Origin: Flagellimonas alvinocaridis
GTDB lineage: Bacteria; Bacteroidota; Bacteroidia; Flavobacteriales; Flavobacteriaceae
DNA length: 64,000 bases
Assembly: GCF_004916895.1 (NCBI RefSeq)
Contig: NZ_SNTZ01000001.1
Span: 280,263 to 344,262 of the forward strand
Direction: 5' to 3'
Position numbers and translations under genes: made by a program. Under the pieces are notes generated by a model, which was given only the letters and a program-made list of their open reading frames with translations, was not told where the DNA came from and made no database searches. This document shows positions 8,458-22,815 of the stretch, piece after piece. Numbering within the stretch: the first letter of the stretch is position 1; each line of letters begins with the position of its first letter.

Positions 8458-8504
8458 TTTATGACAAAGGTGGAGAAAATGCCTTAAATATCAAACCTAC
8501 GGTT

Positions 8505-8708
8505 TCAACAGCAACTCTTGTCCGAGTCGGAAACACCAAACTTTTTCAGGATATCTTCCAACAAACACCACTTGGTGAGGGAAGATTGCAACAAGTTGGC
8601 TCCTACAAATGCAGTGAACCAAAGCCAGTTGATATTCACATAAATGGCAAAGATCAAACTGATCAATATAAAGCTCCCTGCTACTCCTCTTACAATTCTA
8701 TTTCTCAT
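8505..8708 (-). CDS. DUF2892 (YgaP-type) inner membrane protein
   Basis: Starting at the internal ATG (8706-8708) gives 67 residues beginning M-R-N-R-I-V-R-G-V-A-G; an upstream ATG at 8735 would add 9 residues and overlap the preceding gene. The protein has two close membrane segments, the pattern R-x-V-R-x-x-A-G near its start and a cysteine pair at the extreme C-terminus (K-S-C-C). This is the membrane domain that is fused to rhodanese in E. coli YgaP, a family tied to sulfur and thiocyanate/persulfide handling. A second DUF2892 gene lies at 15170-15376. Confidence 0.7.
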   Translation of the reverse strand: MRNRIVRGVAGSFILISLIFAIYVNINWLWFTAFVGANLLQSSLTKWCLLEDILKKFGVSDSDKSCC

Positions 8709-8718
8709 TTTAAGTATT

Positions 8719-9024
8719 TCAAACGGTTCTTTCAATAGGGATTTCCACCGCCTTTATGGGATTGGTGGTCTCGCTCTCCTCATTAAACTGTTTCAAGAGT
8801 TTGAACAGTTCGGTTACTTTTTCCTCTTCGGTGAACGAGAAAAACATATTGGATGCGGCCCCACCTTTTTCACTGGGGAACCAACTGCTGGTATACATCA
8901 ATGGGGCGGCTCCTTTGTATCCATCGATATCGGAACCGCTAAAGCTTTCAACACCTGCCTTTTTAAAAATCTTCAAGACATCCTTTTTGTATTCTTCCAC
9001 CGTGGTAACAATGATCATTTTCAT
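8719..9024 (-). CDS. PII-like/CutA-like small protein of RND operon
   Basis: The chosen ATG (9022-9024) gives 101 residues beginning M-K-M-I-I-V-T-T-V-E-E-Y, a first beta strand as in PII and CutA folds; ATGs at 9057 and 9081 are in-frame alternatives, the latter overlapping the RND gene. Short PII-like proteins with ferredoxin fold are found next to heavy-metal or sulfur-linked RND pumps, where they may sense ligands and gate transport. Sequence includes a F-S-G-S-D-I-D-G-Y-K-G turn and an acidic C-terminus. Family call is moderate; function unproved. Confidence 0.55.
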   Translation of the reverse strand: MKMIIVTTVEEYKKDVLKIFKKAGVESFSGSDIDGYKGAAPLMYTSSWFPSEKGGAASNMFFSFTEEEKVTELFKLLKQFNEESETTNPIKAVEIPIERTV

Positions 9025-9058
9025 GTGTTTACTTTTATCGTTTTGCAAAGGTTCCATG

Positions 9059-12000
9059 CTAGTTGTAATTTTTTCGTTCAATCATATAATACACTAAGGG
9101 CACCACTAAGAGTGTCAATACGGTAGACACTATGGTTCCTCCCATAAGTGATATGGCCAACCCTTGGAAAATAGGGTCGAACAAGATCACAAAAGCTCCA
9201 ATAACCACGGTTCCCGCGGTCAACAAAATAGGTGTGGTACGTACGGCACCTGCTTCAATTACGGCTTGCTTTAGGGGAATTCCCTCATTCAACCGTAGGT
9301 TGATGAAGTCGATGAGCAATACCGAGTTCCGCACCATGATTCCCGCAAGGGCAATCATCCCGATAAAGGAGGTTGCGGTAAAAAATGCACCCAACATCCA
9401 GTGCCCCAACACAATCCCGATCAAGGAAAGTGGAATGGCCACCATCATTACCATTGGCGCTTTAAAGTTTTGGAACCATCCTACGATCAACATGTAAATG
9501 ATCACAATTACACCGAGGAACGCAATCCCCAGATCACGGAACACCTCAAGGGTTATTTGCCATTCCCCATCCCATTTTACCGTATAGTCATCTTCATACT
9601 GGGGTTGCTCCATGTAGAGCTCATTAATGGAATAACCTTGGGGCAATTCCAATTGATTTAACTTATCCGTCATGCCCAAAATGGCGTACACTGGGCTTTC
9701 CAATTCACCTGCCATATCGGACATCACATAAACCACTCGCTTTTGGTTTTTTCTATAGATGCTCTTGGCCTTTGTCCCCTCTTTAATGGAAACCAAATCA
9801 CCAACGGACACCATATTCCCTTGTTGGGATGTTATTTTTAATTGTTGAATCTGATCCAAGTTCGATTTGTCTTTTTCACTAACGGATAGCACAATTCCGA
9901 TTTGGTCAAATGCTTCTTCGCGATAAATATGGGAAACTGGCTGCTCACGGAAGGCCATGGCCATCACCTGTACAATTTGTTGTGGCGTTACGCCATAAAG
10001 CATAGCTTTCTCTTTATCCACCACAAAATCGTATTCCACTTGGTCGTCCTCAACCATCCAATCCACATCCACAACATCGGTGGTATTGTTCAAGATGCCT
10101 TTTACATCATCGGCCAATGCAATTTGCTTGTCGTAATCGGGCCCGTACACCTCAGCAACAATGGTGGACAATACAGGAGGTCCTGGTGGTACTTCAACAA
10201 TCTTGATGTTTGCATTGTACTTTTTGCCCAACTCCTGGATTTTAGGTCGCAACAACTTAGCAATATCGTGGCTTTGTTCGCTACGGTCGTGCTTGTCGGT
10301 AAGGTTTACTTGGATATCGGCCATGTTGCTTCCGCCACGTAGGTCATAGTGTCTCACCAATCCGTTGAACGTAATAGGTGCTGATGTGCCCACGTAGGTT
10401 TGATAGTTCACCACCTCAGGTCTTGTGGACAAGTAGGCCCCTACTTCTTTAGCGACTGCTGAAGTACGTTCCAGAGTAGATCCCTCAGGGAGGTCAATCA
10501 CCACTTGAAATTCGTTTTTGTTATCAAAAGGAAGCATTTTTACGGCTACCGATTTGGTAAAGAACATTCCAACTGAAGCAAATAACAACACCACAGTAAT
10601 GCCAATAAAAACCCATCGCTTCTTTCTACTTTCAATCAGTGGTTTTTCGAAACGTTCGTAGGCTTTATAAATAAAAGTGTCCTGAATTTCGACCGCCTCT
10701 TTTTCCTTTTTGTTCTTCTTTTTGTCCTTTTCTCTCAAGAAGATGAATCCCAAATAAGGGGTAATGGTCAAGGCCACAAACAAGGACAACAACATGGCAA
10801 TGGATGCTCCGATGGGCATTGGGGACATATAAGGTCCCATCAAACCAGATACAAACGCCATGGGCAATACCGATGCGATTACCGTAAAGGTGGCCAAGAT
10901 GGTCGGGTTTCCTACCTCATTGATGGCATAGAGTGCCGCATCCTTGAACGGCAGACGTTTCATCTTAAAGTGGCGGTGCATGTTCTCCGCAATAATAATG
11001 GAGTCGTCCACCACAATACCAGTTACAAACACCAAAGCAAACAAAGTGATTCGGTTCAAAGTGTAATCGAGCATGTAATAGCTCAATAAGGTCAAAGCAA
11101 ATGTGATCGGTACGGAAAGAAACACTACCAATCCACCCCTCCAACCCATGGCCAACATGACCACAAAGGTTACGGCGATGATTGCCCCGATCAAGTGCAT
11201 CAACAATTCGGATACTTTTTGCGAAGCTGTTTGACCGTAGTTACGGGTTACCTCAACATGTACATCATCGGGAATCAAATTTGATTTTAAATGCTCCACT
11301 TTGTCCAACACCACATCGGCAATCTTCATGGCATCGGCGCCTTTTCTTTTGGCAATGGAAATGGTTACCGCTGGGTATTCAGATTTAAAAGTTTCTGACT
11401 TCTCGCTTGCAGCTCCAAATCCAAGGGAAACATAATTTTTAGGCAATTCAGGCCCATCCAAAACGGTTGCTACCTGTTTTAGATAAATAGGTTGATTTTG
11501 TTTAGTGCCAACGATCAGATTTTCCAGATCTTCCTTACTTTCCAAAAAGTTCCCTGTGCTGATGTGGAACTCAGTATCGTTGGAAAGGAAATTCCCAGCA
11601 TCCATTTGTTGGTTGTTGGCCTGAATCATTTGGGCCACGGCCAACATATCGATACCTGATTCGGCCATTTTATCCTTATCCACAACCACCCTAAGCTGAC
11701 GGTTTCTTCCTCCAATTTTTTTGGTAATGGAAACCCCGTTTACTTTTTCAACCTCATTGATCAACTCTCCAGAAATCTCTCGTAATTGAAAGTCATCATA
11801 TTCATCGCTCCATAACGTTAGAGCAAGCATAGGCACATCATCAATAGCTCGGGTTTTTACCAACGGCATGGTAACCCCGTTGGGTATTTGGTCCATGTGC
11901 TTATTTATCTCATCATACAAACGCACCAATGATCTTTCGATATCTTCCCCAACATAGAACTGTACAATGGCCATCCCCTGCTCCTGCATGGAAGTGGTGT

Positions 12001-12256
12001 ACACGTACTCTACGCCTTTAATGTTGGATATGATTTTTTCAAGCGGTTTTGTGATCCTGGATTCCACCTCTGTTGGGCTGGCCCCAGGGTATCCCACAAA
12101 AATATCCGCCATGGGCACATCAATCTGTGGCTCCTCTTCCCTTGGGATCAAAAAAGAACTGTACACCCCAATGACCATGAACACGATCATTAAGAGCACC
12201 GTTAGTTTGGAGCTGATAAACCCTTTGGCTATTTTTCCTGCTAGTCCGTCTTTCAT
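9059..12256 (-). CDS. RND efflux transporter, inner membrane pump
   Basis: At 1065 aa it has the full RND length: N-terminal membrane helix (about 13-33), first periplasmic porter region, helices TM2-TM6 (about 345-510) with the proton-relay acidic pair in G-I-V-V-D-D-S-I-I-I-A-E-N-M, a cytosolic Lys/Glu-rich linker (about 512-525), second periplasmic region and TM8-TM12. It works with the membrane fusion protein (12273-13361) and TolC-family channel (13369-14673) encoded just upstream with 16- and 7-nt gaps. Being co-operonic with PII-like, DUF2892 and YeeE/YedE genes, and under the same operator as the sulfur genes, it probably exports a sulfur-related or sulfur-induced toxic compound rather than drugs. 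Substrate is inference. Confidence 0.9.
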   Translation of the reverse strand: MKDGLAGKIAKGFISSKLTVLLMIVFMVIGVYSSFLIPREEEPQIDVPMADIFVGYPGASPTEVESRITKPLEKIISNIKGVEYVYTTSMQEQGMAIVQFYVGEDIERSLVRLYDEINKHMDQIPNGVTMPLVKTRAIDDVPMLALTLWSDEYDDFQLREISGELINEVEKVNGVSITKKIGGRNRQLRVVVDKDKMAESGIDMLAVAQMIQANNQQMDAGNFLSNDTEFHISTGNFLESKEDLENLIVGTKQNQPIYLKQVATVLDGPELPKNYVSLGFGAASEKSETFKSEYPAVTISIAKRKGADAMKIADVVLDKVEHLKSNLIPDDVHVEVTRNYGQTASQKVSELLMHLIGAIIAVTFVVMLAMGWRGGLVVFLSVPITFALTLLSYYMLDYTLNRITLFALVFVTGIVVDDSIIIAENMHRHFKMKRLPFKDAALYAINEVGNPTILATFTVIASVLPMAFVSGLMGPYMSPMPIGASIAMLLSLFVALTITPYLGFIFLREKDKKKNKKEKEAVEIQDTFIYKAYERFEKPLIESRKKRWVFIGITVVLLFASVGMFFTKSVAVKMLPFDNKNEFQVVIDLPEGSTLERTSAVAKEVGAYLSTRPEVVNYQTYVGTSAPITFNGLVRHYDLRGGSNMADIQVNLTDKHDRSEQSHDIAKLLRPKIQELGKKYNANIKIVEVPPGPPVLSTIVAEVYGPDYDKQIALADDVKGILNNTTDVVDVDWMVEDDQVEYDFVVDKEKAMLYGVTPQQIVQVMAMAFREQPVSHIYREEAFDQIGIVLSVSEKDKSNLDQIQQLKITSQQGNMVSVGDLVSIKEGTKAKSIYRKNQKRVVYVMSDMAGELESPVYAILGMTDKLNQLELPQGYSINELYMEQPQYEDDYTVKWDGEWQITLEVFRDLGIAFLGVIVIIYMLIVGWFQNFKAPMVMMVAIPLSLIGIVLGHWMLGAFFTATSFIGMIALAGIMVRNSVLLIDFINLRLNEGIPLKQAVIEAGAVRTTPILLTAGTVVIGAFVILFDPIFQGLAISLMGGTIVSTVLTLLVVPLVYYMIERKNYN

Positions 12257-12272
12257 TGTTAGCTTTTTAGGG

Positions 12273-13361
12273 TTATTGAATGCTTACTTTAACGCCATTG
12301 TACAGCTTTCCTTCGGCTGATACGATGTATTGATCTCCTTTGGATAAACCGGACAATACTTCTACTTCCTCTCCATAATTCTCACCCAAACGCAACCAGC
12401 GAAGCAAGGCCACATTATCTTGTCCCAAGGTATACACCCCGGTCAATTGACCTTTATGCACCAGGGCCTTCGACGGAACCACAACCATGTCATTCCCATA
12501 ACCTTTTTGTTCCGTCTCCAGCCTTATGGTTGCATACATGCCTGACAAAATCTTGGCTTCTGTCTTGTCCAATGCCACCTTCATTATATATTGTCCTCCA
12601 GTATTTTGTGCCGAAGCACTCAGTTCGGATACTTCACCTGTAAGGGTGGTATCCAACGCTTTTACCAAAACTTGGGCTGTTGTACCTACTTTAATGGCAG
12701 AAATATTGTTTTCGGCTACTTTGGCCTCTACCTCAAAACCACCAGGGGATTCCACTGAAACCAAGGGAACACCTGGGTTGGCCATGGCCCCCTCATCGAT
12801 ATAGGTATTGGTGACCACCCCATTAAAAGGCGCCCTAATGTTGGCATAGGCGAACTGGGAATTCACCTCGTTCTTCATTTGATTGGCTGCTTCCAATCTG
12901 GCTTTGGCCATTTCGTAGCGCGCAGTCATATCATCCAATTCCTTTTGTGTGGCGCTGCTTTCCTTGAAAAGGTTCTGGAATCTTTCGTAATCTTTCTTTG
13001 CATTGTTGAAGGCTACCGTAGCCTCGGTAATAGAAGCTTCCACTTGTGCTTTTTTGGCCCGCAGATCCACATTGTTGATAGAAATAAGAAGGTCTCCCTT
13101 GTTTACTTTCTGACCAATTTTTACAGGTAATGACTCCACATAGCCCATCATTCGGGTACTCAAGGTTGCGCTGTTCACAGCTTTAATCTGACCACTTCCT
13201 GCCAAAATGGTGGAGCTATCTCCTGTATCCACATCGGCAACGGTTACCGGTACTGCTGCGGTTGTATCCGCAGTTTGCTTTTTATCACTTCCACAGCCCA
13301 TTAGGGTAAGACCCAAGGATGCAGTTAAAATGAAACTTTTATATATCGTAGTGTTTTTCAT
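12273..13361 (-). CDS. RND membrane fusion protein (periplasmic adaptor)
   Basis: The 362-aa lipoprotein has a lipobox (L-T-L-M-G-C, Cys23), a lipoyl/barrel-sandwich half motif (G-Y-V-E-S-L-P-V-K-I-G-Q-K-V-N-K-G-D-L-L), a helical hairpin of about residues 100-165 rich in Ala/Glu/Lys, the second lipoyl half (A-P-F-N-G-V-V-T-N-T-Y-I-D-E-G) and C-terminal beta domains. This is the adaptor linking pump and outer-membrane channel. It is the second gene of the operon, 7 nt after the TolC-family gene. Confidence 0.92.
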   Translation of the reverse strand: MKNTTIYKSFILTASLGLTLMGCGSDKKQTADTTAAVPVTVADVDTGDSSTILAGSGQIKAVNSATLSTRMMGYVESLPVKIGQKVNKGDLLISINNVDLRAKKAQVEASITEATVAFNNAKKDYERFQNLFKESSATQKELDDMTARYEMAKARLEAANQMKNEVNSQFAYANIRAPFNGVVTNTYIDEGAMANPGVPLVSVESPGGFEVEAKVAENNISAIKVGTTAQVLVKALDTTLTGEVSELSASAQNTGGQYIMKVALDKTEAKILSGMYATIRLETEQKGYGNDMVVVPSKALVHKGQLTGVYTLGQDNVALLRWLRLGENYGEEVEVLSGLSKGDQYIVSAEGKLYNGVKVSIQ

Positions 13362-13368
13362 GTTACAA

Positions 13369-14673
13369 TTATTCTTTGGTTAAAAATGTGAGTAGGGATT
13401 GGGCTTGATTGTATTCAAAAATGGTCTGATAGTAGGCCAATTGCTTTTCGGCATAAGTGGCCTCGGCCATTAATAAATCGGTTGTTTTTTCCAAGCCTTC
13501 CCCAAATCGGTTGGTACGTATCCTCAATGATTCTTCGGACTGTTCCATAGCCAATTTTGAGGTCTGGAGCCTGCTTTGCGCATCTTCGACCATCCGTTTG
13601 GTGCGTTGTAGCTCCATAGTGCTTTTGGCGACGTACTGTTCGTATTCTTGTTTTGCTTTTTCATAGTTTGTTTTGCTTTTTCCTGCTTTGGCAAATCGTT
13701 GGGAACCTTTGAACACGTCCCAGCTCAAACTTGCCCCGACTATGTATCCTTTGGCGTCTGCCTGAAAAATCTGGTCGTCGTACATTTCGTAACTGGCAAA
13801 TGCATTGAGCCTAGGCAAAAAGGTCATATTATCTGCCCTCATGTTTGCTTTATAGGCTTCGGACACCAAATCCATGGCTTTTACATCGGCCCTGTTTTCC
13901 AAGGAAACATGCATGTTTTCATCAAGGTTATCCGGAACCAGTTCTTCGGAGGGTTCATAGACCACGTTTCCCTGTTCGTTCATCAAGAAAGCCAAATAGT
14001 CCGATGCGTTTTGGACATTGCTCCTTGCCGTTTTCAGCTGATCGGAAACTTCGGTCACCCGCACTTTCACTTCCAATAAATCTGCTTTTTGAAGCAATCC
14101 CTGATCATAACTGTTCTGTGCCATATTCAAGTTGGCATTTGCCGCTTCATATGCTTTTTGCAGCACCGCCACGGCACGATGGGCCAATTGCAGTTGTCCA
14201 TAGGCTTTCTGGGCCTCAAAATCCAAATAATCCCGGGTTCTCATCGCCTGGAGCTCTTTGGCTTCCATGGTAGTTTTGGCCGCTTTGCGCTGGTAAAACC
14301 CATCCAGGTTGATCAAGGGTTGTTGCACCGATACCACGGTTGCATAGTTTTTGATCTCATCGGGGTCGTTCAGTAAAGCTGGATTGAAATCTGCCTGGGT
14401 CAAAACCTCTTGGTTTAATTTAGAACCAAAAGCCATCAATGGATTCGTGGTTGCCATTCCCGTGTGTGATACCGCAATCTGTGGCAAATAGATGGAATTG
14501 GAGAACCTATAATCGTATTTGGCCATTTTAGCATCCTGTTCAGATAACTTAATACTGGTATTGGATTCCTGTACTCTTATTAGGACATCTTCCAAGGAAA
14601 TCTTGACTTGCTCTTGGGCAAAAAATTGACCTTGAGCAAAAAAGAATATCATTAAAACATATAATCGCTTCAT
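13369..14673 (-). CDS. TolC-family outer membrane efflux channel
   Basis: The 434-aa protein has a signal peptide (ending FFA-Q) and two outer-membrane-efflux-protein repeats of long amphipathic helices with heptad-like patterning (for example A-Y-E-A-A-N-A-N-L-N-M-A-Q-N-S-Y-D-Q-G and the C-terminal R-T-N-R-F-G-E-G-L-E-K-T-T-D-L-L). It is first in the seven-gene operon running to 7481. The promoter at 14692-14735 carries a perfect GTAAC-N4-GTTAC palindrome and a TAATTTTG -7 element. Confidence 0.9.
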   Translation of the reverse strand: MKRLYVLMIFFFAQGQFFAQEQVKISLEDVLIRVQESNTSIKLSEQDAKMAKYDYRFSNSIYLPQIAVSHTGMATTNPLMAFGSKLNQEVLTQADFNPALLNDPDEIKNYATVVSVQQPLINLDGFYQRKAAKTTMEAKELQAMRTRDYLDFEAQKAYGQLQLAHRAVAVLQKAYEAANANLNMAQNSYDQGLLQKADLLEVKVRVTEVSDQLKTARSNVQNASDYLAFLMNEQGNVVYEPSEELVPDNLDENMHVSLENRADVKAMDLVSEAYKANMRADNMTFLPRLNAFASYEMYDDQIFQADAKGYIVGASLSWDVFKGSQRFAKAGKSKTNYEKAKQEYEQYVAKSTMELQRTKRMVEDAQSRLQTSKLAMEQSEESLRIRTNRFGEGLEKTTDLLMAEATYAEKQLAYYQTIFEYNQAQSLLTFLTKE

Positions 14674-14691: not shown

Positions 14692-14735
14692 CAAAATTAG
14701 GATGGCGTAATTCCTCCCACAGTAACATTGGTTAC
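14692..14735 (-). promoter_or_regulatory. Crp/Fnr-type operator and promoter of RND-YeeE operon
   Basis: Perfect palindrome GTAACCAATGTTAC (minus-strand reading; 14722-14735) centred 29.5 nt upstream of the -7 element TAATTTTG (14692-14699), which lies 19 nt before the ATG at 14673. The geometry puts the operator near -41, as for class II activation by Crp/Fnr proteins. Four further promoters in the cluster have identical spacing. Confidence 0.85.
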
Positions 14736-14889
14736 CATTATCCTGTCACTGCTGTGTTGGAAAAAGAAAAGAAAACAGACGCATAGAGTTGCGTCCAAGA
14801 AAAGCTGGGTCATCTTTCCAAAACATGACTTGTTACGAACAAACCTATTTTGAAAGGGGATCCATATGAAGAAAAATAAGATTGAAAAA

Positions 14890-15018
14890 TTACTTTTTCC
14901 CGCTGTTCATCATCATTAGAACTGCCAGCACCAAAGCAACCACCACTGCACCAAATACAGCGATCATGATAATACCGTTGTCCCAGGAAACTAAGGGTAG
15001 AGCTAATAAAGTTTTCAT
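14890..15018 (-). CDS. Small single-pass membrane protein, 42 aa
   Basis: From the ATG at 15016-15018 the frame encodes 42 residues: a short N-terminal segment, then one long membrane helix (about residues 14-37, I-I-M-I-A-V-F-G-A-V-V-V-A-L-V-L-A-V-L) and a basic end N-S-G-K-K. An upstream in-frame ATG at 15075 would add 19 residues without a plausible signal. It lies between the RND operon and a DUF2892 gene. Its function is unknown; the short, well-formed membrane helix and isolated position favour a real small protein. Confidence 0.45.
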   Translation of the reverse strand: MKTLLALPLVSWDNGIIMIAVFGAVVVALVLAVLMMMNSGKK

Positions 15019-15117
15019 AGTTGCGTATTTTATATCCGCAAATATAGCGGCCTTATTAACCTTAAAGTATGACAATTCTCATAAAACAAGAATTCGGATA
15101 GCTATACCTCGATGCAC

Positions 15118-15145
15118 AAAAAAGCCACCCAAAAAGGGTGGCTTT
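15118..15145 (-). terminator. Rho-independent terminator
   Basis: Stem AAAGCCACCC / GGGTGGCTTT (15121-15130 and 15136-15145) with a 5-nt loop, followed on the minus strand by a run of U (TTTTTTTGTG). It ends the transcript of the DUF2892 gene 15170-15376. Confidence 0.85.
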
Positions 15146-15169
15146 GTCATCAACCAATCAAGAAAAAAC

Positions 15170-15376
15170 CTAATCCTTTGTTTTACATGTCTTAATTCCA
15201 AAAGGGACATACAAAGGACAAAAACCTACAAAACTTGTTAGAACAAATATGGCGGCCAATGCCATTAGGACATAGGCTAAAGTACCTGATATGACCCCAA
15301 AATAATAAAGGGAAAATACCACTAGCGCCACAACCAATCTTATTATGCGGTCCGAACCGCCCATGTTCTTTTTCAT
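15170..15376 (-). CDS. DUF2892 (YgaP-type) inner membrane protein
   Basis: The 68-aa protein begins M-K-K-N-M-G-G-S-D-R-I-I-R-L, the usual opening of DUF2892 proteins, followed by two membrane segments (about 13-30 and 33-52) and the characteristic G-F-C-P-L-Y-V-P-F-G-I-x-T-C ending with two cysteines. The family is the membrane part of YgaP-like rhodaneses and recurs in sulfur-oxidation loci. It is transcribed divergently from the sulfite dehydrogenase gene and ends at a clear terminator. Confidence 0.8.
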   Translation of the reverse strand: MKKNMGGSDRIIRLVVALVVFSLYYFGVISGTLAYVLMALAAIFVLTSFVGFCPLYVPFGIKTCKTKD

Positions 15377-15481
15377 ATAAATATGTTTTATGTGTCACCC
15401 AGAAAAACGCCGGATTCAGCAGTCTTTCAAAAACTATTATTCATTCAATATCAAAGATATAGCACATCTAAAAAGAATTCG

Positions 15482-15525
15482 GTAACATGGGTTACACAGT
15501 TCTATTTATTTTTATCATAGATTTA
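15482..15525 (+). promoter_or_regulatory. Crp/Fnr-type operator and promoter of sulfite dehydrogenase operon
   Basis: Perfect palindrome GTAACATGGGTTAC (15482-15495), centred 29.5 nt upstream of TAGATTTA (15518-15525), a -7 element differing from TAnnTTTG only in its last base. The ATG of the sulfite dehydrogenase gene follows 14 nt later. Confidence 0.8.
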
Positions 15526-15538
15526 GGATTGGTTTTTT

Positions 15539-16759
15539 ATGGAAAGAAGAAAGTTCACTCAAAAATTATCATTGGCCACCATGGCAGGCATTCTGGGAAC
15601 CGAAGTGGTCTTTGGTCACAAAATGCCCCAAAACTATTTCCCAGTGGGGCTCCAAGATCCAGACCCGTTTAAACTTTTCAACAAGGACAAGGAAATGGTT
15701 GTCCTGAATGACAAACCATGGAACATGGAGGCCAAGGCCCATTTGTTGAATGACGACATCACCCCCAACAAATACATGTTCATCCGAAACAATGGGAAAA
15801 TCCCAGAGAACATAGATGTTTCCACATGGGCTTTGACCATAGATGGGGAATCTGTGAAAAACCCAAAAACGTATACCTTGGATGAACTCAAACAACGATT
15901 TACAAAGCATACCTATCAACTCACCTTGGAATGTGGTGGAAATGGGCGAAGCGAGTTCAATCCACCCGCAAAGGGAAACCAATGGACCGTTGGGGCCGTC
16001 TCTTGTGCCGAATGGACCGGGGTACGACTTCGGGATGTACTTGAAGATGTGGGCATAAACCCAGATGCGGTATACATTGGGTACCATGCGGCCGACACCC
16101 ATTTAAGTGGTGACCCAAGAAAAGAACCTATTTCCAGAGGGGTTCCTATAGCAAAAGCAATGCAGAACGAAACGCTTTTGGCGTTTTCCATGAATGGCGA
16201 GGACATTCCATTGGCGCACGGATTTCCACTTCGGTTGGTGTGTGGTGGATGGCCAGCCTCCACATCGGGAAAATGGCTGACCCGTATCAGTGTGCGAAAC
16301 AAGGTACATGATGGTGAAAAAATGGGAGGAAGTTCTTACCGGGTTCCTTGTGAGACGGTTGCTCCCGGTACCAAAGTGGATGATGAAAATATGTGTATTA
16401 TTGAATCCATGCCCGTAAAATCCCTGATTACCTTTCCCAAGAGCGGGGCACTCATAAAAAATGGGCAGAACCTACAAATTAATGGTCATGCCTGGGCCGG
16501 GGAACTGGAGGTCTCCAAAATGGAATATTCCATAGATTTTGGAAGCACTTGGCACAACTGCTCTTTGAAAGAGTCTTCAAATCGACTTGCTTGGCAGCAT
16601 TTCAAGGCTTCAATATCATTTCCAAAAAAAGGCTATTACGAAGTTTGGGCAAGAGCCACGGATTCCCAAGGGCAATCCCAACCCATGGTTTTGCCCGGTT
16701 GGAACCCCAAGGGATACCTCAACAACGCCTGTCATAGAATAGCTGTTAAAATGGTATGA
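15539..16759 (+). CDS. Molybdenum sulfite dehydrogenase (SoxC/SorA-like)
   Basis: The 406-aa protein has the sulfite-oxidase fold: a molybdopterin-binding domain with the Mo-ligand cysteine C132 in L-T-L-E-C-G-G-N-G-R, the family motif W-T-G-V-R-L-R-D-V-L, G-Y-H-A-A-D, and H-G-F-P-L-R-L-V near residue 225, followed by a C-terminal dimerisation domain (about 285-400). The N-terminus M-E-R-R-K-F-T-Q-K-L-S-L resembles a Tat signal (RR-x-F), in line with export of a folded Mo enzyme. It oxidises sulfite to sulfate and passes electrons to the cytochrome c encoded by the overlapping next gene. Promoter carries the cluster operator. Confidence 0.88.
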   Translation: MERRKFTQKLSLATMAGILGTEVVFGHKMPQNYFPVGLQDPDPFKLFNKDKEMVVLNDKPWNMEAKAHLLNDDITPNKYMFIRNNGKIPENIDVSTWALTIDGESVKNPKTYTLDELKQRFTKHTYQLTLECGGNGRSEFNPPAKGNQWTVGAVSCAEWTGVRLRDVLEDVGINPDAVYIGYHAADTHLSGDPRKEPISRGVPIAKAMQNETLLAFSMNGEDIPLAHGFPLRLVCGGWPASTSGKWLTRISVRNKVHDGEKMGGSSYRVPCETVAPGTKVDDENMCIIESMPVKSLITFPKSGALIKNGQNLQINGHAWAGELEVSKMEYSIDFGSTWHNCSLKESSNRLAWQHFKASISFPKKGYYEVWARATDSQGQSQPMVLPGWNPKGYLNNACHRIAVKMV

Positions 16760-17214
16760 GCATGAAGCCTAATTTTGAAGAACAGATAAAGGCATTTGTA
16801 TCGGTTTTAGCCATCTTTCTATTACTGATGTTGGTCTTGTTCGGGGGACTCTTCTATGTTGCCAACAGGAAACCCAAATCGCATGTTGAAGAAGTTCCGG
16901 TAGAAGATTCCGTTGAGGATTTCGACAAAGTGGAAAACGGCATCCATGTGGCCACTGGTTTTATTGATGATGAAGGAATGCAGGTTACCGTTCAAAATTG
17001 TACCGCCTGTCATTCCGCAAAATTGGTCACCCAAAACCGAATGAGCCGGGAGGGCTGGAAAGCCACCATTGTATGGATGCAAGAAACCCAAAACCTATGG
17101 GATTTGGGTGTAAATGAAGAGCTTATTTTAAATTATCTGTCCAAAAACTACGCCCCTACCGACAAGGGAAGGCGGCAGAATTTGGAAGTTGCCGAATGGT
17201 ATGAATTAAATTGA
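16756..17214 (+). CDS. Membrane-anchored monohaem cytochrome c (SorB-like)
   Basis: The 152-aa protein has an N-terminal membrane anchor (about residues 13-36), an acidic linker and a single haem-binding motif C82-T-A-C85-H86 with following helices (R-M-S-R-E-G-W-K, L-N-Y-L-S-K-N-Y). Cytochromes of this kind accept electrons from sulfite dehydrogenases. The start codon overlaps the stop of the dehydrogenase gene (ATGA), and its own stop overlaps the next gene, so all three are translationally coupled. Confidence 0.87.
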   Translation: MSMKPNFEEQIKAFVSVLAIFLLLMLVLFGGLFYVANRKPKSHVEEVPVEDSVEDFDKVENGIHVATGFIDDEGMQVTVQNCTACHSAKLVTQNRMSREGWKATIVWMQETQNLWDLGVNEELILNYLSKNYAPTDKGRRQNLEVAEWYELN

Positions 17215-17216
17215 TC

Positions 17217-18098
17217 ATGGGAGAATATCTGGATGCTTTGCTGAACGGATTTTTGGGGACAGCTCAATGGACATGGAAATCCATTTTGTTCCAAGTGCCC
17301 TGGTACACCAACTATTTTTGGGGCCTCATTGCCATCTCACTTTTGGTATGGGCACTGGAAATCCTTTTCCCATGGCGGAAAGAACAGTCCGTTTTCAGAA
17401 AGGACTTTTGGTTGGACGCCTTTTACATGTTCTTCAACTTTTTCATTTTTGCCATCGTCATCAGTGGGGTGTACAAAGTGCTCGGGGTGCTCTTTTTGGA
17501 TATGGGAATCGGCTCCAAAAGTCTGGCCCTAGTAGATGTGACCCTATGGCCCCAATGGGTCCAATTGCTGGTTTTCTTTGTTGTGCTCGATTTTGTGCAG
17601 TGGTTCACCCATGTTCTCCTGCATAGGGTGCCGGCCTTTTGGGAATTCCACAAGGTACACCACAGTGTCAAGGAAATGGGGTTTGCCGCGCATCTGCGCT
17701 ACCATTGGATGGAAAACATCCTCTACAAACCCTTAAAGACCATAGGGGTCATGGTTCTTGGTGGATTTGAACCTGAGCAGGCTTATATTGTGCATTTTGT
17801 GGCCATCGCCATTGGGCATTTCAACCACTCCAACATAAAACTGACCTGGGGACCGTTGAAATATATTTTGAACAATCCCGTGATGCATTTATACCATCAT
17901 GCCTATGATCTTCCCAAAGAGCATCCCTATGGGATGAATTTTGGAATAAGCCTCAGTCTTTGGGATTATATTTTCCGTACCAGTTATGTTCCGGAAAGTG
18001 GTGGAAAGATACGGTTGGGGTTCCCTAGTGACGAAACCCTGCCCAAAGGGTTTTGGGGACAGCTAGTCCATGGATTTACAAAATCAAAAAGAAAATAG
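17217..18098 (+). CDS. Sterol desaturase/fatty acid hydroxylase family membrane protein
   Basis: From the ATG at 17217 (a TTG at 17211 is in frame) the protein has 293 residues with about four to five membrane segments and the di-iron histidine clusters of the family: H-V-L-L-H-R, H-K-V-H-H-S, H-F-N-H-S-N and H-L-Y-H-H-A-Y-D. Such enzymes hydroxylate or desaturate lipids using O2. It is the third gene of the sulfite dehydrogenase operon, an unusual companion; it may modify a lipid or quinone. It ends 16 nt from the convergent rhodanese gene, with no obvious terminator between. Confidence 0.8.
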   Translation: MGEYLDALLNGFLGTAQWTWKSILFQVPWYTNYFWGLIAISLLVWALEILFPWRKEQSVFRKDFWLDAFYMFFNFFIFAIVISGVYKVLGVLFLDMGIGSKSLALVDVTLWPQWVQLLVFFVVLDFVQWFTHVLLHRVPAFWEFHKVHHSVKEMGFAAHLRYHWMENILYKPLKTIGVMVLGGFEPEQAYIVHFVAIAIGHFNHSNIKLTWGPLKYILNNPVMHLYHHAYDLPKEHPYGMNFGISLSLWDYIFRTSYVPESGGKIRLGFPSDETLPKGFWGQLVHGFTKSKRK

Positions 18099-18114
18099 AT
18101 AGTGATCAATGTAA

Positions 18115-18453
18115 TTACCACATGCGATAACCCCCTCTTAGGTCATACACCTCACTGAAACCCATATCCACAAGTTTACGAGCCGCTTTTTGGCTTCTAT
18201 TCCCAGACTGACAGTACAGGTATATGGGTTCATCCTTCTTCATTTTTGAAAAGGCTTCACCAAACGCCGAAGATTTAAAATAGTCCACGTTACGGGCACC
18301 TTTAATATGCCCTGACCTGAACTCCCCAGCTGTTCTCACATCAATCAATTGTACCTTGGCTTTGGAAATGGCATTTTTATAGGCATCCCTATCCAAAATT
18401 TGGATGGCATCGGATTGATTTCCCTTTGGGAACAAAAAACTAAATATTGACAT
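18115..18453 (-). CDS. Single-domain rhodanese
   Basis: The 112-aa cytoplasmic protein is one rhodanese domain: L-I-D-V-R-T-A-G-E-F-R-S-G-H-I-K-G-A-R-N and the active-site loop Y-C-Q-S-G-N-R-S with the catalytic cysteine. It transfers sulfane sulfur between thiols, probably feeding the persulfide dioxygenase. It has its own promoter with the cluster operator (18474-18517) and is monocistronic, facing the sulfite dehydrogenase operon. Confidence 0.88.
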   Translation of the reverse strand: MSIFSFLFPKGNQSDAIQILDRDAYKNAISKAKVQLIDVRTAGEFRSGHIKGARNVDYFKSSAFGEAFSKMKKDEPIYLYCQSGNRSQKAARKLVDMGFSEVYDLRGGYRMW

Positions 18454-18473
18454 TTTATCCTGATTTATGCCAT

Positions 18474-18517
18474 CAAAAATACAGGGGATAAAAGCTATGG
18501 TCAGTAACGCGGGTTAC
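18474..18517 (-). promoter_or_regulatory. Crp/Fnr-type operator and promoter of rhodanese gene
   Basis: Perfect palindrome GTAACCCGCGTTAC (minus-strand reading; 18504-18517), centred 29.5 nt upstream of TATTTTTG (18474-18481), 21 nt before the ATG at 18453. Same geometry as the other four cluster promoters. Confidence 0.85.
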
Positions 18518-18530
18518 ACAACGTAAAGGG

Positions 18531-18914
18531 CTAGTCTTCTTTCTTCCAGTCGTCATACCCGCCGGAATAGTCATAAATCTGAGTGAATCCTTTGGTCTTG
18601 AGAATTTCCACAGCCTTATTGCTCCGTGCCCCTTTTTTGCAATAGACATACACAGGTTTCTCCTTGTCCAATCCCTCCAATTGGAAAGCAAAGGTTTCCG
18701 CATTGCTGATATCGAAGTTTACCGCATCATCTATGTGTCCCTCTTGATATTCCATTGGGGTCCTGACATCCACCAACTGAACATCCTTACCTATCACTTC
18801 AGCCTGCATGGTGGCCTTATCTATTTTTTTAACCAATTCCTTTTGTTGGGGAAGACAAGACATCATCCACAAAAAACTAAAAGTAAAGAGGGTAAATTTT
18901 AGTGCTTTTCGCAT
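18531..18914 (-). CDS. Exported rhodanese lipoprotein
   Basis: The 127-aa protein begins with a lipoprotein signal (L-W-M-M-S-C-L, Cys20), so it sits in the periplasm or outer membrane. The rhodanese domain shows D-V-R-T-P-M-E-Y-Q-E-G-H-I-D-D-A and active loop Y-C-K-K-G-A-R-S with the catalytic cysteine. It follows the CstB-like gene by 4 nt in the same operon, giving the cell a periplasmic sulfurtransferase besides the cytoplasmic one at 18115-18453. Confidence 0.85.
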   Translation of the reverse strand: MRKALKFTLFTFSFLWMMSCLPQQKELVKKIDKATMQAEVIGKDVQLVDVRTPMEYQEGHIDDAVNFDISNAETFAFQLEGLDKEKPVYVYCKKGARSNKAVEILKTKGFTQIYDYSGGYDDWKKED

Positions 18915-18918
18915 GTTG

Positions 18919-20328
18919 TTATTTTAAAGTAGTTGGACAAACGTAATCCGTTACAGGAATCCCTGCTGTTTTCATGGCACCAAAACCACCGGCCACATCA
19001 ATAAGATTATGTATTCCCCTACTCTTCAGGATAGAGGCCGCAATCATACTCCTATACCCTCCTGCACAGTGAATATAGAAGGTTTCATTCTCTGGATATT
19101 CTGCCAGATGGTCGTTTAAAAAGTCTAATGGGGTCAGTATGACATTCTCCGCATGTTCAGCCTGATATTCCGTTTCCTTTCTAACATCAAATACAGGGAC
19201 TTTTTCTTCCATGGCCTTTTTTAATTCATCAGCAGAAACACTTTTTACCGTATCCACTTCCTTGCCTGCTGCTTCCCACGCTTTCAATCCACCTTTCAAA
19301 TATCCCAAAGTACCATCGAACCCAACCCTGGAGAGACGGGTAATGGTCTCTTCTTCCCTGCCTTCCGGGACTACTAAAAGAATAGGTTGTTCCACATCTG
19401 CGATCAAAGCACCCACCCACGGAGCAAAACTTCCATCCAGTCCAATAAAAATAGATCGTGGCACATGTGCCTTAGCGAAATCGGCTTGGTGACGCACATC
19501 CAAAACCACAGCACCTGTTTCATTGGCTGCTGCTTCAAATGCATCTGGACCTAAGGCTTGGGTTCCTCTTTTTAGAACAGTATCTATATCCTCATACCCT
19601 TCCTTGTTCATTTTCACGTTCAATGGGAAATATTGGGGAGGAGGCAAAAGACCATCGGTGACTTCCTTGACGAATTCCTCCTTGGTCATATCTGCCCGTA
19701 AGGCATAGTTCATTTTCTTCTGATTGCCCAGAGTATCCACGGTTTCTTTCATCATGTTCTTTCCACAGGCAGAACCTGCACCGTGTGCCGGGTACACAAT
19801 AACGTCATCTGCCAAAGGCATGATTTTGTCTCTGAGGCTGTCAAACAACGTTCCTGCCAACTCTTCTTGGGTCATATGGGCAGCTTTTTGTGCCAAATCC
19901 GGACGTCCCACGTCGCCCAAGAACAGTGTATCGCCACTAAAAATGGCATGGTCCTTTCCATTTGCATCTCTTAACAAATAGGTGGTACTCTCCATGGTAT
20001 GTCCCGGAGTGTGTAGCGCTTTAATGATAATCTTACCGAGTTTAAACTCTTGGCCATCTTTGGCAATAATGGCATCAAAAGAAGGTTGGGCGGTAGGGCC
20101 ATAAACAATGGGAGCCCCGGTCTCTTTCGACAAGGTCACGTGACCACTTACAAAATCGGCATGGAAATGGGTCTCAAAAATATATTTTATGGTTGCCCCT
20201 CGGGCCTTGGCCTTTTTAATATAGGGGCTTACCTCCCTTAGAGGGTCCACAATGGCCACTTCGCCTTCACTTTCTATATAATATGCCCCTTGGGCCAAAC
20301 ATCCGGTATATATTTGTTCTATTTTCAT
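18919..20328 (-). CDS. CstB-like persulfide dioxygenase-rhodanese fusion
   Basis: The 469-aa protein starts with a metallo-beta-lactamase-fold persulfide dioxygenase domain (about 1-245; H54-F-H56-A-D58, H-T-P-G-H and S-G-D-T-L iron ligands), then two rhodanese domains. The middle one (about 255-360) has lost its catalytic cysteine (loop V-P-E-G-R-E), while the last (about 365-460) keeps it in I-H-C-A-G-G-Y-R-S. This is the order of staphylococcal CstB (MBL, pseudo-rhodanese, rhodanese), which converts low-molecular-weight persulfides to thiosulfate or sulfite. It heads the operon with the lipoprotein rhodanese and carries the cluster operator. Confidence 0.88.
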   Translation of the reverse strand: MKIEQIYTGCLAQGAYYIESEGEVAIVDPLREVSPYIKKAKARGATIKYIFETHFHADFVSGHVTLSKETGAPIVYGPTAQPSFDAIIAKDGQEFKLGKIIIKALHTPGHTMESTTYLLRDANGKDHAIFSGDTLFLGDVGRPDLAQKAAHMTQEELAGTLFDSLRDKIMPLADDVIVYPAHGAGSACGKNMMKETVDTLGNQKKMNYALRADMTKEEFVKEVTDGLLPPPQYFPLNVKMNKEGYEDIDTVLKRGTQALGPDAFEAAANETGAVVLDVRHQADFAKAHVPRSIFIGLDGSFAPWVGALIADVEQPILLVVPEGREEETITRLSRVGFDGTLGYLKGGLKAWEAAGKEVDTVKSVSADELKKAMEEKVPVFDVRKETEYQAEHAENVILTPLDFLNDHLAEYPENETFYIHCAGGYRSMIAASILKSRGIHNLIDVAGGFGAMKTAGIPVTDYVCPTTLK

Positions 20329-20345
20329 CTCATTTAGGTTTTTGC

Positions 20346-20389
20346 CAAAAATACAGTTCTGTAATCAACCATACAGTCACCAAAGTTAC
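20346..20389 (-). promoter_or_regulatory. Crp/Fnr-type operator and promoter of CstB-like operon
   Basis: Palindrome GTAACTTTGGTGAC (minus-strand reading; 20376-20389; one mismatch in the proximal arm), centred 29.5 nt upstream of TATTTTTG (20346-20353), 18 nt before the ATG. Between operator and -7 it shares the string AGAAC-GTATTTTTG-type sequence with the SulP promoter. Confidence 0.8.
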
Positions 20390-22119
20390 AAACTCTTTGT
20401 TTTGGATTGTAGCGAGACCCTTCTCTGAACTCCGGTTCTTTCCTTGTGATCGGAGCAGTAATCCACGGCCTCAAAGGTTTGGACAAAAAGGTTTTCCTCC
20501 CCAATAATATCGATAAGTCCACTGTGGTACAAAATGTCCCTTGTTGGACCAATGGCTCCTGTTATCAACAATTGGATCCCCTTTTCCCGTAAATCCAAAA
20601 TGATGCGTTCCAAAAGGGTCGTCGCACTACTATCAATATAATTGATGGCCTCCGCATTAAGGATGATATACTTCAACCCACTTCCCTTTTTTTCTATTTG
20701 TTGATAAAGCTGTTTTTTGAAATAATCCTTGTTGCCAAAATACAGTTGGGCATCAAATCGAATGATGAGCTTGTCAGTCTCTACCTCCACTTCTTCCGGA
20801 AACCGGTTCACATTCTTAAAATAATCAGTGCCCTTTATCCGTCCCAAAACGGCAATATGGGGATTGGAAATTCGGTATACCAACAACAACAAGGAAAGCA
20901 ACACGCCCAAAAGGATTCCTTCGATCAACCCTATGAAAAGGGTCAATAAAAAGGTAGCGACCAACAACATGAACTCATCCTTTCTGCTCTTGAAAAGCAT
21001 TGCGGGATATTTTAAATCTATCAGTCCAAAAACCGATACAATAATGATTGCTCCCAATGCTGCCGCTGGCAAATCATGGAACAAGGGTGTTAAAAACAAA
21101 AGGACACCAGCAATCAACAGGGCACTAAAAATAAGTGCCATTCCTGTTTTCGCCCCGGCCTGATCATTGACCGCAGTACGTGAAAAACTTCCTGAAACGG
21201 GAAAAGACTGAAAAAAAGAGCCTATGAGATTGGAAAAACCCAAGGCACGAAGTTCTTGGTTGGCATCCAGCTCATATTCCGTATGTTTTTCTTCGATGGT
21301 CTTGGCAATAGAAATGGATTCCATGAACCCGAATAGGGCCACCGTAATGGCTATGGGCAATAATTGTCCTATTAGTTCCCATTGCAATACTGGCATTTGA
21401 AAATTGGGCAATCCTTTGGGGACTTCTCCCACCACCTGAATTCCTTTGGTCTCCAAACTCAAAAATAATACTGCCAAAATTCCCATAATTACAATGACCA
21501 ACGGAGTAGGTATTTTTTTGCTTACTCGGTTCATGATCAAGATTAGGATGATAGCCACAATGCCCAATATCAATGTGTACGAATTAATCTGTCCCAAATT
21601 GTCAAAAATATTCCCGAGCAGAAGGTGAATTTTGCTGGACTGCGTTATCTGAACCCCAAAAATATGCTTCAGTTGGCCCAATCCAATCAAAATGGCCGCA
21701 GCAGAAGTAAATCCGCTAATGACGGGTTTGGACAAAAAATTGACAAAAAATCCCATTCTAAAAAAACCCAATACCAATTGAACACCCCCTATAAGAAGAG
21801 CTAAAAGAAGTACGGCTGCAATATAATCTTGGGTGTTGGCAAGTTGTAAAGCGCCTACTCCTGCCGCCACCAATAGGGAATCCATGGCCACCGGACCCAC
21901 TGCCAACTGGCGTGATGTACCTGTCAACGCATAAACAATCTGCGGAACCAGTGCAGCGTAAAGTCCATAAATGGGTGGCATTCCGGCAATCATGGCATAG
22001 GCCATCCCTTGAGGCACCAACATGACCCCCAAGGTGAGTCCCGCAATGAGATCCCCATAAAGGAGTGAACGATTATAGGTCTTCAACCACGATAAAAAGG
22101 GAAAAAACCGTTTAAGCAT
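20386..22119 (-). CDS. SulP-family anion transporter with STAS domain
   Basis: The ATG at 22117-22119 is chosen because the -7 element of the promoter overlaps the earlier in-frame ATG at 22137. This gives 577 aa: about 14 membrane segments (G-D-L-I-A-G-L-T-L-G-V-M-L-V-P-Q-G-M-A-Y-A and the signature around P-P-I-Y-G-L-Y-A-A), then a C-terminal STAS domain (about 440-560, with Y-I-D-S-S-A-T-T). SulP proteins carry sulfate, bicarbonate or related anions. In this cluster a role in sulfate or sulfite movement is likely; the substrate is not shown by sequence. Confidence 0.85.
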   Translation of the reverse strand: MLKRFFPFLSWLKTYNRSLLYGDLIAGLTLGVMLVPQGMAYAMIAGMPPIYGLYAALVPQIVYALTGTSRQLAVGPVAMDSLLVAAGVGALQLANTQDYIAAVLLLALLIGGVQLVLGFFRMGFFVNFLSKPVISGFTSAAAILIGLGQLKHIFGVQITQSSKIHLLLGNIFDNLGQINSYTLILGIVAIILILIMNRVSKKIPTPLVIVIMGILAVLFLSLETKGIQVVGEVPKGLPNFQMPVLQWELIGQLLPIAITVALFGFMESISIAKTIEEKHTEYELDANQELRALGFSNLIGSFFQSFPVSGSFSRTAVNDQAGAKTGMALIFSALLIAGVLLFLTPLFHDLPAAALGAIIIVSVFGLIDLKYPAMLFKSRKDEFMLLVATFLLTLFIGLIEGILLGVLLSLLLLVYRISNPHIAVLGRIKGTDYFKNVNRFPEEVEVETDKLIIRFDAQLYFGNKDYFKKQLYQQIEKKGSGLKYIILNAEAINYIDSSATTLLERIILDLREKGIQLLITGAIGPTRDILYHSGLIDIIGEENLFVQTFEAVDYCSDHKERTGVQRRVSLQSKTKSL

Positions 22120-22134
22120 AGGGTTGGTTTTGAA

Positions 22135-22178
22135 CAAAAATACGGTTCTGTGTATTGCTTTACAGTAACCAAAAGCAC
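22135..22178 (-). promoter_or_regulatory. Crp/Fnr-type operator and promoter of SulP gene
   Basis: Degenerate palindrome GTGCTTTTGGTTAC (minus-strand reading; 22165-22178): proximal arm GTTAC perfect, distal arm poor. It is centred 29.5 nt upstream of TATTTTTG (22135-22142), exactly as at the other four promoters, and 16 nt separate the -7 element from the ATG at 22119. Confidence 0.7.
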
Positions 22179-22182
22179 AGAC

Positions 22183-22815
22183 CTATAGATCTAAAATCTG
22201 GATATAGTTCCGGTGAAGGACCAATTTCTTCATTTTCTCGAGCTTTTTCAACAAGCGTGATATCACTACCCTCGAGGTGTGCAGGTCATAGGCAATCTCT
22301 TGATGGGTACTTCGTATCTGATTGTCGTTGGTCACCTCAATCTTCTTTTTGAGATAGTCCACCAAACGTTGATCTAAATTTTTAAAGGCAATACTGTCCA
22401 CCGTCTGCAACAGTTCATTCAATCGGTTATGATAGCTTTCGAACACATAATTGCGCCATCCTTTGTACTTGGCCATCCATTCTTCCATTTTTTGGACGGG
22501 CACCATCATAATTTTGGCATCGGTCTCGGCAATGGCCCTAATCTCACTTTGGGTGTGACCCATACAACAGGCCATGGTCACGGAACAGGTCTCCCCTTGT
22601 TCCAGATAGTAAAGCAACAATTCATCGCCCTCATCATCTTCCCGCAATACTTTAATGGCTCCGGAAAGCAGCAATGGAATACTTCTGATATAGTTTCCGA
22701 TATCCATGATGGTCTCGCCAGCAGGGACTTCCATGCACTTGCCCACTTCAATAATCTCATCAATAAGGGGTTGCTCAAAATGGGAACTGAATATTCCTAA
22801 AAGTTCTTCTTTCAT
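22183..22815 (-). CDS. Crp/Fnr-family regulator, probable regulator of the sulfur cluster
   Basis: From the ATG at 22813-22815 the protein has 210 aa; an upstream ATG at 22926 would cross a terminator hairpin and is unlikely. Residues 1-125 are a cyclic-nucleotide-type beta-roll; residues about 160-205 hold a winged helix-turn-helix (S-T-H-Q-E-I-A-Y-D-L-H-T-S-R-V-V-I-S-R-L-L-K-K-L-E). The sensor domain carries cysteines C27, C77 and the pair C83-C84 (G-E-T-C-S-V-T-M-A-C-C-M-G-H), which could sense persulfide, redox state or bind a metal centre. Its position and the five matching operators make it the best candidate regulator of the cluster. No full operator precedes its own gene; a GTAAC half-site lies at 22838-22842. 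Confidence 0.88.
   Translation of the reverse strand: MKEELLGIFSSHFEQPLIDEIIEVGKCMEVPAGETIMDIGNYIRSIPLLLSGAIKVLREDDEGDELLLYYLEQGETCSVTMACCMGHTQSEIRAIAETDAKIMMVPVQKMEEWMAKYKGWRNYVFESYHNRLNELLQTVDSIAFKNLDQRLVDYLKKKIEVTNDNQIRSTHQEIAYDLHTSRVVISRLLKKLEKMKKLVLHRNYIQILDL

Follow-up and report, generated by a model that had tools for sequence, protein, structure and literature searches.

Known Class II and Sulfur-Responsive Regulators

The class II promoters of Escherichia coli CRP carry a short palindrome with TGTGA arms centred at −41.5; the phosphate-binding cassette of cAMP-CRP consists of Gly-Glu and Arg-Ser, while FNR carries N-terminal cluster-binding cysteines. The regulators CstR, SqrR, BigR and FisR are of the CsoR, ArsR and sigma-54 types and control persulfide dioxygenase, rhodanese, SQR or TauE genes. 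They are named as sulfide/sulfane-sulfur sensors in two sources (PMC11211675, PMC7315123), the second of which also mentions a Crp-like protein of Acinetobacter baumannii that was found persulfidated. NtcA is described as a class II activator whose binding site, GTAN8TAC, is centred at −41.5 and in one case lies 22 nt from the −10 box (PMC3898017). The present analysis concerns a 64,000-nucleotide stretch of Flagellimonas alvinocaridis, of the Flavobacteriaceae (assembly GCF_004916895.1, contig NZ_SNTZ01000001.1, positions 280,263 to 344,262, forward strand; hereafter the window), in which a palindromic operator, GTAAC-N4-GTTAC, recurs at a fixed distance from a −7 box, TAnnTTTG, in a cluster of sulfur genes that also holds a Crp/Fnr gene (22183–22815).

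The locus resembles the cyanobacterial NtcA regulon in its GTA-N8-TAC core, its operator centre at −41.5, the 22 nt to the box and a similar recognition helix, and PDB comparisons of the regulator by sequence and by fold both place NtcA chains among the best matches. Unlike the NtcA regulon, which holds nitrogen genes, it holds sulfur genes, with a longer operator and the Bacteroidota TAnnTTTG box. The Crp/Fnr fold is shared with E. coli CRP, but the cAMP cassette residues are missing; CstR, SqrR, BigR and FisR have similar target genes but are not Crp/Fnr proteins. The architecture (class II Crp/Fnr, NtcA-like) is of an already known kind. The regulator, its operator and a sulfur regulon extending beyond the Flavobacteriaceae appear undescribed in the open-access literature searched, in which neither a Crp/Fnr sulfur regulon in Bacteroidota nor a regulator sensing sulfide or reactive sulfur in Bacteroidota was found. 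The preferred explanation, with a probability of roughly 0.8, is that the 22183–22815 protein would be a dedicated, direct class II activator of a sulfide/persulfide clearance regulon.

One Operator at One Distance

Spacing was counted in nt from the operator end to the first T of TAnnTTT and was found to be 22 nt in all five window promoters listed in an initial annotation of this DNA, placing the operator centres 29.5 nt upstream of that T. The coordinates of the five operators and the 29.5-nt distance agreed with that annotation, whereas the distance from the −7 box to the ATG, given there as 14–21 nt, was recounted as 13–20 nt from the box end (18, 13, 20, 17 and 15 nt for promoters A, B in the plus direction, C, D and E, respectively; Table 1). 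A sixth promoter, absent from the annotation, was found at operator B, which is also used in the minus direction with the box TATCTTTG, 75 nt from the ATG of a small DUF2892 gene; positions 15452–15525 hold a single operator between two mirror-image −7 boxes, each at 22 nt. Such two-sided use was also found for 22 of the 228 perfect operators in 83 related loci. The window holds 3 perfect GTAACN4GTTAC palindromes where 0.02 were expected and 5 full promoters with at most one mismatch where 0.01 were expected; none of 100 dinucleotide shuffles matched either count, in line with the annotation's view that coincidence was improbable. The palindrome alone at two mismatches was at background (21 found, 17.6 expected), so the signal lies in near-perfect arms combined with spacing.

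A search of Flavobacteriaceae relatives for motif and box spacing, proposed in the same annotation, returned the same arrangement. The first set, 60 loci of 57 other genera with 1.17 Mb in total, contained 335 perfect operators, counted by strand, compared with 4 for a reversed-palindrome control; 126 perfect-operator promoters had a spacing of 22, and every other spacing between 0 and 49 occurred 5 times or fewer. A second set of 80 named loci, sharing some genomes with the first, had 163 promoters with the 22-nt spacing and no more than 5 with any other, with at least one in 70 of the 80 loci. Mapping of transcription start sites in Flavobacterium psychrophilum places TAnnTTTG at −12 to −5 (PMC9723704), which puts the operator centre at −41.5, the class II position; this centre and the invariant distance to a −10-type box are those of a class II site. 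The matrix of 237 sites reads tnTGTAACNNNNGTTACtg, followed by an uninformative spacer and TAnnTTT[G/A], without a separate −33 element; the arms and TA/TTT were required for selection, leaving the flanks and the G/A position as its free evidence. The upstream operator flank prefers T at −1 (0.78) and −3 (0.72), with no mirror preference in the downstream flank, a pattern that could reflect alpha-subunit contact.

Conservation in the Genus and in the Genome

The nearest named relatives of the locus fall in Flagellimonas/Allomuricauda, and 22 same-genus loci were compared, a site being counted at exactly 22 nt with at most two mismatches. It is kept before the gene for the metallo-beta-lactamase (MBL)-rhodanese protein in 21 of 22 loci, before DUF2892 in 17 of the 19 carrying the gene and before SorA in 5 of 6, and is perfect in all 14 loci holding TolC. 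The SulP site, present in 19 of 22 loci and never perfect, has a degenerate upstream arm that is typical of the genus, two of the three missing loci showing a three-mismatch form at 22 nt. The hydroxylase gene is present in the cluster in all 22 loci and in 13 stands directly behind the site, with no intervening SorA.

In the organism's own genome (3.7 Mb, 120 contigs), the four zero-mismatch promoter matches all lie inside this cluster. At two mismatches, 16 matches were found compared with 52 for the backwards control, making that list mostly noise. Two of its entries, each 22 nt from a −7 box and at a plausible distance from a gene, are candidate further members, though drawn from a list not above control: GTGAC-N4-ATTAC before a DUF983 gene (C1:1145074, L017) and GTGAC-N4-GTCAC before a ferritin-like gene that we take to be Dps (C2:386520, L018). 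A further two-mismatch match, C102:108639, was rejected as not promoter-like. A fully palindromic GTGAC-N4-GTCAC at 22 nt was observed before an SQR-type gene in five genus loci (L055:10238, L056, L057, L061 and L062) and may represent a site tuned differently for the same regulator; two of these loci also have a cytochrome bd gene with GTAAC-N4-GTAAC at 22 nt. One SQR-type protein, tested singly, fell far below the cut-off of the type III SQR model.

Link between the Motif and the Crp/Fnr Gene

The annotation had tied the motif to the Crp/Fnr gene of the cluster, and this association was recovered on a family scale. Crp relatives, counted at E ≤ 1e-30, are present in 253 of 299 Flavobacteriaceae genomes and the perfect promoter in 219; the promoter was found in 215 of the 253 Crp-positive genomes versus 4 of the 46 Crp-negative ones (Fisher P 2.6e-24), a co-occurrence inflated by the many Crp-negative genomes that are small or incomplete. 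In the 60 genomes of the first spacing set, 129 of the 233 genome-wide perfect copies lie within ~20 kb around the Crp gene, ~0.5% of the genome, with at least one near it in 55 of 60 loci. Crp genes themselves are 8 of 110 first genes behind the site in other genera, where the regulator would control its own gene. A contig labelled Candidatus Rokubacteria (L279), perhaps mis-binned, holds a Flavobacteriaceae-like Crp with 60% identity.

The Regulator Protein

The 22183–22815 protein matches the cyclic-nucleotide-binding (cNMP) barrel (PF00027, E 4e-9) and the Crp helix-turn-helix (PF13545, E 5.5e-7), both above cut-off, with the barrel N-terminal and the winged helix-turn-helix C-terminal as in the Crp/Fnr superfamily. 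Its structure model (pLDDT 86, pTM 0.64) matches Crp/Fnr chains to E 2.4e-15, with TM ~0.5–0.6 and mostly large root-mean-square deviations that leave the domain arrangement unsure. The best PDB match by sequence and fold is 3dv8, an uncharacterised Crp/Fnr protein of Eubacterium rectale, with cysteines at the positions of Cys77 and Cys83 and Ile at that of Cys84, the sequence match spanning residues 35–209. The recognition helix SRVV[IV]SR was found in 83 of 85 orthologs, the exceptions being one SREV and one SARVV form; TSRVVISRLL aligns with STRVTVTRLL of NtcA. Since GTAAC-N4-GTTAC contains GTAN8TAC and the helix has the pattern Arg-Val-x-x-Thr/Ser-Arg, an NtcA-like mode of site recognition is suggested. 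No other helix of this kind was found among the genome's other 13 cNMP-domain proteins (14 in total), and a genome search with the regulator at E up to 0.001 returned only itself.

All 85 orthologs counted have Cys77, 84 of them have Cys83 and 82 have Cys84, five distant relatives (L078, L080–L083) being counted separately. In an ungapped alignment with NtcA, Cys77 corresponds to Phe74 and Ser78 to Gly75. The 2-oxoglutarate contacts of NtcA are given as Arg87, Arg128 and Glu133 in S. elongatus numbering in PMC12937710 and PMC6243067, the former numbering them one higher. At these positions, Arg87 and Glu133 are replaced by Ser90 and Leu136, with Arg128 kept as Arg131 (85/85). In place of the cAMP cassette, the GEL of CRP reads SVT (78–80) and its Arg reads Gln89, with Ser90 kept. 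The cysteine set of FNR (4Fe-4S) is likewise missing, the sole cysteine before residue 77, Cys27, being Cys in only 1 of 85. The predicted effector pocket thus seems to have lost the known ligand chemistry and to carry cysteines.

Genes behind the Operator

The features of the cluster are collected in Table 1. The codirectional genes from TolC to the two YeeE halves (7481–14673) bring TolC-MFP-RND efflux together with split YeeE/YedE sulfur-transport-like halves, and we infer that they form one operon; the TsuA model matched one YeeE half far below cut-off. The SorA-like protein matches NCBIfam SorA at E 9.5e-71, yet below the curated cut-off, and the MBL-rhodanese protein, probably persulfide-dioxygenase/CstB-like judging by its domain architecture, matches the NCBIfam Blh model (sulfur transferase/dioxygenase) at E 2.3e-16, below cut-off. 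A longer mechanical SulP open reading frame would begin within the −7 box, and the ATG at 22119 was taken as start.

Table 1. Promoter elements and genes of the cluster, in window positions.
Feature	Position	Strand	Sequence	Remarks
Operator A	14722–14735	−	GTAACCAATGTTAC	Perfect
−7 box, operator A	14692–14699	−	TAATTTTG	22 nt from operator; promoter of TolC-MFP-RND-YeeE genes
Operator B	15482–15495	both	GTAACATGGGTTAC	Perfect; common to two divergent promoters
−7 box, operator B	15518–15525	+	TAGATTTA	22 nt from operator; sulfite dehydrogenase gene
−7 box, operator B	15452–15459	−	TATCTTTG	22 nt from operator; DUF2892/YgaP-like gene
Operator C	18504–18517	−	GTAACCCGCGTTAC	Perfect
−7 box, operator C	18474–18481	−	TATTTTTG	Rhodanese promoter
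Operator D	20376–20389	−	GTAACTTTGGTGAC	One mismatch
−7 box, operator D	20346–20353	−	TATTTTTG	MBL-rhodanese promoter
Operator E	22165–22178	−	GTGCTTTTGGTTAC	Upstream arm degenerate (all 3 mismatches); downstream arm perfect
−7 box, operator E	22135–22142	−	TATTTTTG	SulP promoter
Two YeeE/YedE-type halves	7891–8457, 7481–7894	−		Pfam Sulf_transp above cut-off in both
Small protein	8719–9081	−		Without Pfam match
RND permease	9059–12256	−		
Membrane fusion protein (MFP)	12273–13361	−		
TolC	13369–14673	−		First gene behind operator A
YgaP-like transmembrane (DUF2892) protein	15170–15376	−		68 aa; Pfam PF11127, E 4.5e-23
SorA-like molybdopterin sulfite dehydrogenase	15539–16759	+		Pfam above cut-off
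Small membrane-anchored-looking protein	16756–17214	+		One CxxCH haem motif; weak sub-cut-off Pfam haem-binding match
Fatty acid hydroxylase/sterol desaturase family protein	17217–18098	+		Domain match
Single-domain rhodanese	18115–18453	−		Behind operator C
Second rhodanese	18531–18914	−		Downstream of MBL-rhodanese gene, codirectional
MBL-fold protein with two rhodanese domains	18919–20328	−		Behind operator D
SulP-family anion transporter with STAS domain	20386–22119	−		Start at ATG 22119
Crp/Fnr regulator	22183–22815	−		210 aa; NtcA-like recognition helix; Cys77/83/84 in effector-pocket region

Among 29 first genes of a pattern-chosen genome-wide sample, OEP/TolC (9, all 54–64% identical to the window's TolC), rhodanese (5), MBL (4, partly the same proteins as the rhodaneses), SulP (2), AhpC/TSA (2), TauE (1) and hydroxylase (1) were found besides others, and 21 of the 29 belong to regulon families by the author's own tally. 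A genome-wide occurrence of the motif unlinked to sulfur genes, which the annotation had offered as grounds for rejection, is not what was observed, and the downstream families of the pattern-chosen samples support a sulfur regulon. Near the Crp gene, the 110 first genes scanned out of 155 included rhodanese (32), MBL (29), TauE (14), Pyr_redox_2 (10), Crp (8), peroxiredoxin (7), SulP (6), DUF983 (6), OEP (5), YgaP-like (5), SorA-type (4), hydroxylase (4) and cytochrome bd (2), with 11 proteins matching the NCBIfam type III SQR model at E ≤ 1e-10.

The class Bacteroidia was surveyed in 198 genomes, of which six belong to the window's family; 33 of the 198 contain a perfect promoter with the TAnnTTTG box, and 2 a match to the backwards control. 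Among 28 loci of this kind from outside the family, a homologue of a window-cluster gene is present in 17, and the first gene is TauE or DUF983 in two more; the other nine have genes for a prismane protein, DUF2492, two DsbD, a Pyr_redox protein, a thioredoxin, two di-haem peroxidases and a secretion-tail protein, the last of which was set aside as looking like chance. The prismane, DsbD and di-haem peroxidase promoters belong to other Bacteroidia families (L290, L292, L293, L314 and L315).

Proposed Mechanism

What is read directly from the compared genomes is the motif, together with its spacing, conservation and gene set. We infer further that the protein binds the operators, activates transcription and reads sulfide or persulfide via Cys77. 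A class II Crp/Fnr reading, put forward in the annotation, is supported by the spacing histograms, the co-occurrence, the helix comparison and the survey of other cNMP-domain proteins. The regulator dimer would bind GTAAC-N4-GTTAC through its NtcA-like recognition helix and, positioned at −41.5 in place of a −33 element, would recruit sigma-A RNA polymerase to TAnnTTTG, serving six window promoters of which the two divergent ones use one operator. The predicted regulon would handle sulfide and sulfane sulfur through the MBL-rhodanese protein, the rhodaneses, sulfite dehydrogenase, SulP, TolC/RND/YeeE and DUF2892, to which relatives would add SQR-like proteins, TauE, peroxiredoxin and cytochrome bd, and certain other genera the regulator as well.

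The signal may be sulfide or persulfide, sensed in what was the nucleotide pocket by Cys77 together with Cys83/84; given the pocket cysteines and the gene set, persulfide is put forward tentatively, at somewhat below even odds. Cys77, at the NtcA Phe74 position beside the effector pocket, would react with persulfide alone or link to Cys83/84. That this Crp/Fnr branch of Bacteroidia is a dedicated sulfane-sulfur sensor, in which a Cys77-persulfide replaces the effector and switches the activator on, is a conjecture with rather less than an equal chance of being right.

Several observations weigh against the proposed activator and its regulon. A perfect site is lacking in 38 of the 253 Crp-positive genomes, including G020, of the window's genus, which has one-mismatch sites (L071), and four Crp-negative genomes carry one copy each. 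No site was found before the crp gene in the window or in the 22 genus loci, and the window's genome yielded no close SQR, the best being a partial match with 35% identity (E 1.6e-5). Loss of the palindrome from orthologous promoters had been named in the annotation as refuting; promoters of the persulfide-dioxygenase-like, TolC, SulP, DUF2892 and SorA genes retain it in the genus, whereas before the rhodanese of operator C it stands in only 4 of 18 gene-bearing genus loci. No convincing sites were found near the five distant orthologs of 39–49% identity, where L082 shows two two-mismatch matches, and no other perfect 5-4-5 palindrome at 22 nt was found when sought in these five loci. All five keep Cys77 and three keep Cys83, while L077 has a perfect site without Cys83 and Cys84, so the cysteines are not tied to this regulon.

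Alternative Explanations

A class II activator with another signal (nitric oxide, peroxide, oxygen or a small pocket ligand), in a wider thiol/redox stress response, deserves real weight, although on balance it is considered somewhat doubtful. The site also stands at peroxiredoxin, thioredoxin, DsbD, cytochrome bd, di-haem peroxidase and one prismane promoter, and Cys77 is also found in relatives with other neighbourhoods, as would be expected of such a response. Sulfur-transfer and sulfide-oxidation families are nevertheless the commonest targets, and two of the five site-less relatives adjoin sulfur-type genes, L078 lying beside rhodanese/thioredoxin/DUF983 and L083 beside TauE/MBL/YeeE.

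It is unlikely that the same protein mainly represses, with a sulfur signal lifting the repression. CstR, SqrR and BigR are repressors, and binding at −41.5 would cover the −33 region; a repressor should, however, tolerate shifts of its site, yet one spacing was found in the sets of 126 and 163 promoters, the matrix has no separate −33 element, and a single operator is able to serve divergent promoters at mirror-image positions.

Still less probable is another transcription factor binding the operators, with the Crp/Fnr gene a mere neighbour. Binding by Crp is deduced from sequence, and the site is absent upstream of crp, as noted, in the window and its genus; against this stand the co-occurrence across 299 genomes, the fit of the NtcA-like helix to an operator containing GTAN8TAC, the Crp genes among first genes in other genera, and a helix unique among the 14 cNMP-domain proteins, the one family of regulators that was surveyed.

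Chance or copied promoter DNA is practically negligible: two-mismatch palindromes are at chance in the window and the two-mismatch promoter pattern does not exceed the control in the genome, but the near-perfect counts, the shuffles, the spacing histograms and the 237-site matrix contradict a chance origin, and spacers that differ among the window promoters and carry nearly no information over the 237 sites speak against copying.

Significance

With its single operator, single spacing and candidate activator gene, the regulon makes sulfide sensing in Bacteroidota directly testable. The mirror-image divergent promoters lend themselves to testing whether a single class II dimer can serve two polymerases, and the shared promoter provides a handle on DUF983, DUF2892, the sterol-desaturase-like protein and the RND-YeeE genes. 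If persulfide sensing is true, the regulator would be, to our knowledge, the first Crp/Fnr protein acting as a primary persulfide sensor. The Flavobacteriaceae are major marine heterotrophs, and a persulfide-sensing Crp/Fnr protein would, on the same condition, be a general sulfide-response switch of the Bacteroidia.

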